The notes under the pieces: generated by a model
Database searches by the model: none
Seen by the model: the letters and a program-made list of their open reading frames with translations, nothing else
What the model was told of the DNA's origin: nothing
From: a virus
Length of the DNA stretch: 23,969 nucleotides
Strand: one strand, 5' to 3'
IMG/VR virus record: IMGVR_UViG_3300022538_000110
Location: 1 to 23,969 of that record
Shown here: one piece after another, positions 565 to 3,780 of the stretch
Position numbering within the stretch: the stretch's first letter is position 1
How the letters are laid out: the number at the start of each line of letters is the position of its first letter
Translations under genes and position numbers: made by a program

Positions 565-618
565 ATGTTTATCTGCGAAACAATAATGGGGGTGCATATT
601 CGACCGAAAAAATGTTAA
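565..618 (+). CDS. possible 17-codon leader ORF running into the tRNA-like RNA
   Basis: A strong Shine-Dalgarno (AAAGGGGGG) sits 4 nt before ATG 565, which opens 17 codons ending at TAA 618. The frame runs through the acceptor strand and first half of the central stem of the tRNA-like RNA at 588-661, so RNA folding and translation would exclude each other. The peptide resembles nothing known. It may be a vestige or a chance start. It is listed because the ribosome site is as good as those of the real genes around it. Confidence 0.22.
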   Translation: MFICETIMGVHIRPKKC

Positions 619-661
619 CAATTCTTTTCGGATACGTGGGTAGTTCCCACCACCTCCACCA
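588..661 (+). ncRNA. tRNA-like RNA resembling a tmRNA tRNA-like domain without its coding segment
   Basis: Seen: a 7-bp acceptor stem, GGGGGTG (588-594) with CACCTCC (651-657), then A658 and an encoded CCA. The third pair is G:U, and with A73 this is the alanine identity signature. The D region is unstructured and reads CATATTCGAC, matching the conserved TTCGAC near the 5' end of bacterial tmRNA. A long central stem, CCGAAAA/TTTTCGG (604-610/625-631), extends by three more pairs around a bulged C to a 7-nt loop GTTAACA. A T-arm GTGGG/CCCAC (636-640/646-650) carries only a 5-nt loop, TAGTT. The 3' end CACCTCCACCA is also tmRNA-like. A normal tmRNA has hundreds of nt (tag frame, pseudoknots) where this has a hairpin. 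The alternative is a D-armless tRNA with an over-long anticodon stem. Confidence 0.6.
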
Positions 662-2406: not shown

Positions 2407-3780
2407 ATGAATACAACCCCCATATACGATCCTGAAAAGGATATAAAACTTCCCTACAAATATACCCCTCGCTGGTATCAAATTCCCTTCTTTAAAGCCC
2501 TTGAGATGGGCTATAAACGCTTTGACCTTGTATGGCATAGACGTGCAGGCAAGGACATCTCCATTGTAAACGCAACCTCTACCGCTATGGGAATGGGTAA
2601 ACTCTTAAAATATGGTGGTATAGGCACTTATTACTACTTTTTTCCCACATTTGCACAAGGTAAGAAGGTTATCTGGGATGGTATGACCAAAGAAGGCATT
2701 AGATTCCTTGATTTTATACCTGAAAAGCTTCGTTATAAGACCTGGAATGATGAGATGAAAATACGCCTCACAAACGGGTCATTATTCCAAATCATCGGCA
2801 CTGATAACTTCGACGCCATAATGGGAACTAATCCTATTTGGTGTGTTTTCTCCGAATATGCCCTACAAAATCCCAAAGCATGGGAATACATAAGACCAAT
2901 CTTGACTGAAAATAACGGAATTGCTATATTTCCTTATACCCCACGAGGAAGAAACCACGCTTACAACCTTCATATTACCGCAGAAGATAACCCTGAACGT
3001 TGGTTTTCCGAAGTCCTGAATATTGATTACACTAAAGCAATCACCAAAGAAGCCGTAGAACAAGAGAGAAAAGACGGAATGTCTGAAGAACTTGCTCAAC
3101 AAGAGTTCTACTGTTCATTTATGCGAGGAATTGAAGGGTCAATCTATGGCAAACAAATTTATAAAGCCAGAGAAGAAGGTAGAATTAAAAGCATTCCTTT
3201 GGATGATGCTACCCCCGTTCATACTGCTTGGGATATAGGAGTAACTGACTTTACCTCAATTATCTTCTTTCAACAATTCCCCGGTGAATACCACATAATT
3301 GACTTTTATGAAAATCAAGGTGAGGGAGTTCAGCACTACGCTAAAGTTTTACAGGACAAAGGATACACTTACGGAAATTATTATGGTCCACACGACTTAA
3401 AATCTAAATCTTGGACAAATGAAGGTTTGCCAACTATTCAGGTAGCCAAACAATATAATATTCATTTTCAGATTGTGCCCAGAATGTCAAAAGCAGACCT
3501 CCCCGAAGCTGGAAGAAATTTAATCAGTAAATGCTACTTTAATAAAGACAAACCTGAAGTCTTGGTCTTAGTTAATCACTTAGAGAATTTTACCAAAGTT
3601 TACAGCAGGGCTATGGGTTGTTATATGAACACATATAAACACGATGAACATTCTCATGCTGGTACTGCTTGGGGATACTTCGGAGTATCTCAAAAATCCC
3701 AAGAAATATACAATCCTAATAGGATGTTTGAAGAAGAAGACAATATACAAAAACACTGTTCAAAATACAGTGGATTATAA
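2407..3780 (+). CDS. terL: terminase large subunit (DNA-packaging ATPase/nuclease)
   Basis: A 457-residue motor that drives DNA into the prohead and cuts it. It has an adenine-binding Q motif region (PRWYQIPFFKAL, about 21-32), Walker A HRRAGKD (44-50), a Walker B-like strand IWCVFSE (144-150; Ser before the catalytic Glu, as in many podovirus terminases), and a C-terminal RNase H-like nuclease with Asp276 (AWDIG), Asp300 (IIDFYE) and Asp330 (HDLK). The last nuclease motif reads SHAGTAWGY (416-424), where relatives usually have SHxADAxRY, so the usual Asp is Thr420; Asp413 is nearby. GGGGGAATAAGG precedes ATG 2407. No small subunit is recognisable beside it. Confidence 0.93.
   Translation: MNTTPIYDPEKDIKLPYKYTPRWYQIPFFKALEMGYKRFDLVWHRRAGKDISIVNATSTAMGMGKLLKYGGIGTYYYFFPTFAQGKKVIWDGMTKEGIRFLDFIPEKLRYKTWNDEMKIRLTNGSLFQIIGTDNFDAIMGTNPIWCVFSEYALQNPKAWEYIRPILTENNGIAIFPYTPRGRNHAYNLHITAEDNPERWFSEVLNIDYTKAITKEAVEQERKDGMSEELAQQEFYCSFMRGIEGSIYGKQIYKAREEGRIKSIPLDDATPVHTAWDIGVTDFTSIIFFQQFPGEYHIIDFYENQGEGVQHYAKVLQDKGYTYGNYYGPHDLKSKSWTNEGLPTIQVAKQYNIHFQIVPRMSKADLPEAGRNLISKCYFNKDKPEVLVLVNHLENFTKVYSRAMGCYMNTYKHDEHSHAGTAWGYFGVSQKSQEIYNPNRMFEEEDNIQKHCSKYSGL

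Follow-up and report, generated by a model that had tools for sequence, protein, structure and literature searches.

Trans-translation is nearly universal in bacteria; the tRNA-like domain (TLD) of tmRNA is the binding partner of SmpB, and the G3:U70 pair is the main determinant for alanyl-tRNA synthetase (AlaRS). To our knowledge, interference of phages with this process is hardly documented. The closest described molecule is the tmRNA of mycobacteriophage DS6A, which has been characterized as "TLD only" (PMC4131195, PMC11915505). According to these reports, which cite Mao 2009, such a molecule is a strong inhibitor of tmRNA irrespective of whether it can be charged, and may act by titration of SmpB; the inhibition was observed in E. 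coli with the RNA of a phage other than the one studied here. An engineered TLD, made of 25+34 residues with UUCG as its closing loop, has been seen bound to SmpB in a crystal (PDB 2CZJ, PMC3985003). In the 2025 tmRNA database (PMC11915505) no more than nine tmRNAs, whatever their source, are classed as "standard, no CDS", and bacteriophages account for 79 entries altogether.

We examined a comparable RNA in a virus record of 23,969 nucleotides (IMGVR_UViG_3300022538_000110; the whole of this stretch is called the window below), which carries genes for terminase, portal and major head protein. The RNA is 74 nt long, occupies positions 588-661 of the plus strand and reads GGGGGUGCAUAUUCGACCGAAAAAAUGUUAACAAUUCUUUUCGGAUACGUGGGUAGUUCCCACCACCUCCACCA. 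As a preliminary description had proposed, it begins and ends with a 7-bp acceptor stem (588-594, GGGGGUG, paired with 651-657, CACCUCC) whose third pair is G3:U70, and which is followed by A73 and an encoded CCA (658-661). There is no D-stem; instead the unpaired D-region at 595-603 (CAUAUUCGA) carries the UUCGA of the tmRNA-type element pointed out in the same description. The long helix proposed to lie in the place of the tmRNA helix P2 is found in the predicted fold at 604-631, with strands 604-613 and 621-631, a single bulged C and the 7-nt loop GUUAACA at 614-620. An AUAC stretch separates it from a T-arm at 636-650 (GUGGG-UAGUU-CCCAC, stem 636-640/646-650), the loop of which has the five bases noted earlier as non-canonical, rather than the 7-nt T-psi-C loop of canonical tmRNA. 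The predicted minimum free energy is -24.7 kcal/mol (z -2.99), and equal stability was reached in one of 200 shuffles.

In a search over 811 bases, the Rfam tmRNA model RF00023 matched this RNA with 26.6 bits (E 9.4e-9), a score below the 47-bit gathering cut-off of that model. The alignment spans model positions 1-374, the middle 304 positions being deleted and replaced by a short loop and the T-loop being shortened, and in it the RNA is without a tmRNA-type mRNA-like domain, tag frame or pseudoknots. A covariance model (R1), built from an alignment (A1) of 33 other phage RNAs with the window left out, recovered it with 39.6 bits (E 4e-8). The RF00023 match and that of an independent family model show that the resemblance is not due to chance. 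An ordinary or intron-split tRNA, including tRNA-Ala, was considered and rejected: the D-arm and anticodon arm are missing and with them any alanine anticodon, as had been observed, the loop reads GUUAACA, and ARAGORN and Rfam at normal thresholds report only two nearby tRNAs and nothing at 588-661. These comparisons, along with the relatives considered below, support the earlier proposal that the window RNA is a phage tmRNA cut down to its tRNA-like domain by removal of the centre, and we regard the identity of the RNA family as message-less tmRNA TLDs as very nearly certain from its sequences.

Upstream, an open reading frame on the same strand (239-553) ends 34 nt before the RNA. A 17-codon open reading frame read from the sequence (565-618, plus strand), whose ATG follows a purine-rich GGGGGG leader, overlaps the RNA over its 5' half, with its stop codon in the apical loop. 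Hence the assertion that the RNA has no tag frame holds for a frame of the tmRNA type, with the qualification that this short frame overlaps it; the latter is probably incidental, or might couple translation to folding. No promoter or terminator consensus above chance was found close to the RNA. Directly 3' of it, at 667-703, lies a strong imperfect hairpin (TTGACTA..GCGAC/GTCGC..TAGTCAA) with no T-run. Further downstream on the plus strand are genes for tRNA-Thr(TGT) at 760-836 and tRNA-Met(CAT) at 915-988, both called by ARAGORN and Rfam, and the large terminase subunit gene (terL) at 2407-3780 (phrog_2, 2e-20), 1.75 kb from the RNA. Since some phages integrate into ssrA, the RNA might have been an attachment-site copy of the 3' end of a host ssrA gene; Escherichia phage PhiR12_5, for example, has an ssrA-like 3' end beside its integrase gene. 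Such a site comprises the 3' end only, whereas the window RNA has a pairing 5' acceptor strand, UUCGAC and P2, and the window proteins that were scanned yielded no integrase. The complete, conserved and pairing 5' half rules this origin out, leaving it a negligible probability.

Used as a pattern, the window's own letters retrieved a single other contig, which has 99.8% identity across 7,036 bases and an identical RNA; no other close relative of this subtype was found, so selection on the window copy itself is not visible. Two of the contigs fetched as terminase relatives contained a similar RNA: one of 103 nt just upstream of terL (L020, 1093-1195), and a TLD-only RNA of 88 nt named tRNA-Leu(taa) by ARAGORN (L016, 4215-4302). 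Four degenerate pattern scans of IMG/VR yielded a set selected for TTCGA, the counts from which are lower bounds. A structural filter demanding a 7-bp acceptor, a 5-bp T-stem and a TTCGA-type element 10-18 nt from the 5' end, and leaving position 70, base 73 and CCA free, retained at least 93 distinct message-less TLDs of 63-89 nt, all of which have G3:U70 and A73. They are located in at least 119 viral loci, including a few that overlap with or duplicate the contig of the window, and in seven genome contigs; a further 15 matches to the filter are apparently chance occurrences in coding sequence or register shifts. RF00023 scored 10 of 13 tested relatives above its cut-off, with up to 75.3 bits, which together with the conservation and covariation described next indicates that the relatives are tmRNA homologues devoid of a message. 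ARAGORN misses most family members or labels them as tRNAs, implying that surveys based on it undercount the family. In BLAST searches of named isolates with a family member, the regions examined held full-length tmRNAs or matched at the 3' end only, with no clear TLD-only case, and no isolate with a TLD-only RNA emerged when three subfamilies served as queries. One phage contig (L310) combines a TLD-only RNA with more than 25 tRNA genes.

The preliminary description had made conservation of the acceptor G:U, A73-CCA and the central helix in related phages the decisive point. In a scan that left the acceptor free except for CCA, every listed match with TLD spacing combines G3:U70 and A73 with an acceptor of 7 bp (6 bp in one case), features that the matches with tRNA spacing, which are ordinary tRNAs, do not share. 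Another scan, which was complete, fixed only the 5' half and GGAC..GGGT; 37 of its 38 distinct sequences possess all seven acceptor pairs, all five T-stem pairs, a 7-nt loop, U70 and A73, and CCA is encoded in 19. G3:U70 and A73 are therefore essentially invariant where position 70 and base 73 had been left free. The encoded CCA is the exception to the expected conservation, being present in just 76 of the 93 listed members, while GGA precedes the T-stem in 86 of these 93, a feature not selected for in three of the scans. The central helix, which was never part of any selection, is kept as well: 92% of it is paired in A1, where each of its seven pairs shows two-sided changes. For the structure as a whole, A1 gives a covariation score of 0.585 against 0.135 for shuffled alignments; none of 500 shuffles reached this value, and sliding gave no more than 0.134. 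The score of alignment A2, a 51-row model-fitted alignment leaning towards the structure, is 0.664. In members of 80-84 nt (e.g. L100, L471 and L481) P2 encloses a recurrent element, shared across groups, that consists of an A-rich stretch and a mini-hairpin of the form AAA(G/A)CCnCAAGnGGA.

Among the listed members, the window RNA is nearest to a 77-nt group, agreeing with L250 in 58 of 79 alignment columns, the region around GTTAAC included. The self-complementary GUUAAC had been thought to permit dimers; this notion, and with it a kissing-dimer role, is not supported by comparison, as GTTAAC is present in six and broken in eight of the 14 listed members of the most similar group. Other differences are confined to particular elements. 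The T-loop, of 5 nt in the window RNA, has 7 nt in all other 92 listed members; the D-region is about three bases shorter than in its relatives in A1 and lacks their GG; and GGAC of the relatives is replaced by GGAUAC. Both partners of the usual D-loop/T-loop contact are thereby lost, and this altered elbow may entail poor binding of SmpB by the window RNA. The acceptor and the T-stem remain intact, and it is these that carry the determinants for AlaRS. One could regard the window copy as a decaying relic of a once functional family member, a view to which its unique T-loop, the missing GG and a degenerate tRNA-like sequence nearby (842-913) lend some colour. This last lies between the two called tRNAs, has CAT in its loop and an encoded CCA, and elicits from ARAGORN no call and from the models a weak tRNA-Sec match. 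Given that the acceptor, central and T helices are intact but for one bulged base, that A73-CCA is retained and that a second contig has the very same RNA, we consider decay unlikely, and on its sequence the window RNA is better described as a divergent variant of the family.

A complete scan of 84,980 prokaryote species genomes with a similar pattern, one that 56 of the fetched viral loci fit, returned 116 stretches, seven of them TLD-only. Of these seven genome contigs, two have a terL-like gene within the locus (L364, L425), one encodes an apparent terminase and portal (L358) and one has a neighbour gene common to viral loci (L387), the remaining carriers being L371, L392 and L413. Judging from these occurrences, the family is widespread, residing mostly in viral contigs of many unrelated phages. 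Terminase genes often adjoin the RNA; distances to terL were computed from record coordinates, and the names terS (small subunit) and, in some cases, terL denote similarity to seeds judged by eye, with no family match. In the 77-nt group (e.g. L301, L157, L176 and L179) the terS stop codon is split as TA|G, such that the RNA starts with its G, and CCA is followed by a GAGGA-type leader and the ATG of the next gene, with terL about 1.5-3 kb further on. The gene order of the 70-73-nt group is terS-RNA-terL, and about 0.27 kb separates the RNA from the terL frame. In L299, L020 and L149 terL follows the RNA at a distance of at most about 0.6 kb; the last of these has a 782-aa terL frame with an apparent intein-like insertion. 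In L084, L178, L016 and the window the distance from the RNA to terL is within 1.2-3.7 kb on the same strand. This arrangement, with terS-TLD-terL order in two groups, a first G common to the TAG stop of terS, and direct placement upstream of terL in L299 and L020, raises the question of whether the fold is mainly an RNase P/RNase Z processing signal punctuating the terminase operon, or an RNA related to packaging. Yet a processing signal needs no invariant G3:U70, A73, UUCGAC or GGA, and in L044, L167, L082, L235 and L320 the RNA is 8-20 kb away from terL; hence we hold such a role to be quite improbable.

No SmpB gene was found in 36 carrier records, many of which are fragments so that each is weak evidence by itself; a phage-encoded SmpB was accordingly dropped as a candidate, and the partner would have to be that of the host. 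A phage-encoded partner of the RF-1/ArfB type was likewise set aside, as a gene with an RF-1 domain occurs in just one of the 36. In Tunturiibacter phage Tunturi_4 (L453, 2118-2465), an RF-1-domain release factor gene adjoins a tmRNA-like 3' end. The precedent of the DS6A RNA and of the inhibition ascribed to such molecules favours competition for SmpB, which the preliminary description had also suggested. We therefore regard as the most likely reading, and give an even chance to, the view that the TLD-only RNA of the phage competes with host tmRNA for SmpB during infection, with AlaRS, EF-Tu and stalled A sites as secondary targets of the competition. The direct evidence comprises the sequence and structure, the homology, the conservation of alanine identity and P2 in the relatives, the distribution across phages and the lack of an SmpB gene in the carrier records checked; that the window RNA is expressed, processed and charged, binds SmpB and inhibits tmRNA is what we infer. 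Possible benefits to the phage would be that tagging of its own unfinished proteins is prevented, or that it could cope with messages cut by host defence nucleases.

The main rival is tag-less rescue of the sort presumed for mitochondria: an alanyl-TLD would enter stalled ribosomes with host SmpB and take over the nascent chain, and a hydrolase such as ArfB or Pth would then release the complex, so that ribosomes would keep turning over and phage proteins would remain untagged for proteolysis. All features for charging and peptide acceptance are conserved in the relatives, message-less mitochondrial tmRNAs have been kept together with SmpB (PMC11915505), and in one carrier record (L167) a gene with an RF-1/GGQ domain follows the RNA at a distance of 1.2 kb. 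Against these points, such a domain is limited to that single record, and the sole functional report on a molecule of this kind describes tmRNA inhibition (PMC4131195). We accordingly view tag-less rescue as a tentative alternative with a minority of the probability. A broader proposal, about evenly balanced in our estimation, is that message-less, alanine-chargeable tmRNAs constitute a widespread class of phage effectors intercepting ribosome rescue in many lineages, often from within the terminase operon. In the 77-nt group, release by RNase P, if the cut at the 5' end of the RNA occurs, would deprive the stop codon of terS of its final base and leave a non-stop message.

RNAs of this kind were previously known from one phage, DS6A; what is new is the breadth of the family, its strict alanine identity and the frequent neighbourhood of terminase genes. 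No mention of this breadth, strict conservation or terminase-operon setting was found in the open-access literature, and earlier notice elsewhere is possible. With at least 93 distinct RNAs, an invariant alanine identity and a covarying P2, an oddity becomes a testable class, and the recurrence of the same stripped-down RNA in many unrelated phages suggests that phages may commonly jam or borrow host ribosome rescue.

Compared with known systems, the DS6A RNA, like that of the window, is phage-encoded and comprises little beyond the tmRNA TLD, the 5' and 3' halves being joined directly and without a tag. By description, the window RNA differs in its 5-nt T-loop, its shortened D-region and its origin in a phage without sign of close kinship. 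The engineered TLD of 2CZJ has the same architecture as the natural phage RNAs, with 5' and 3' parts joined by a short hairpin loop, but is a laboratory construct without CCA. The tmRNAs of jakobid mitochondria and Mallomonadaceae plastids, the latter of about 65 bp, also retain the tmRNA domain without a tag (PMC11915505); unlike the window RNA they are organellar rather than phage-borne, and the mitochondrial genes are usually permuted. The circularly permuted two-piece tmRNA of marine phages (PMC9004378) is phage-borne like the window RNA, though it has a message piece and a permuted gene order, neither of which is found here. An unannotated stretch of Synechococcus phage S-CRM01 (L510, 2501-2560; ...CATCTCCAC-TTCTT-GGGGATGCCAAGGTTTCGAC) resembles a circularly permuted tmRNA whose spacer is very short. 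Finally, canonical one-piece tmRNA (RF00023) has in common with the window RNA the G3:U70 acceptor, A73, UUCGAC, the absence of a D-stem, P2, the T-arm and CCA, but extends over about 350-400 nt with a tag frame and pseudoknots, whereas the window RNA has neither in its 74 nt.
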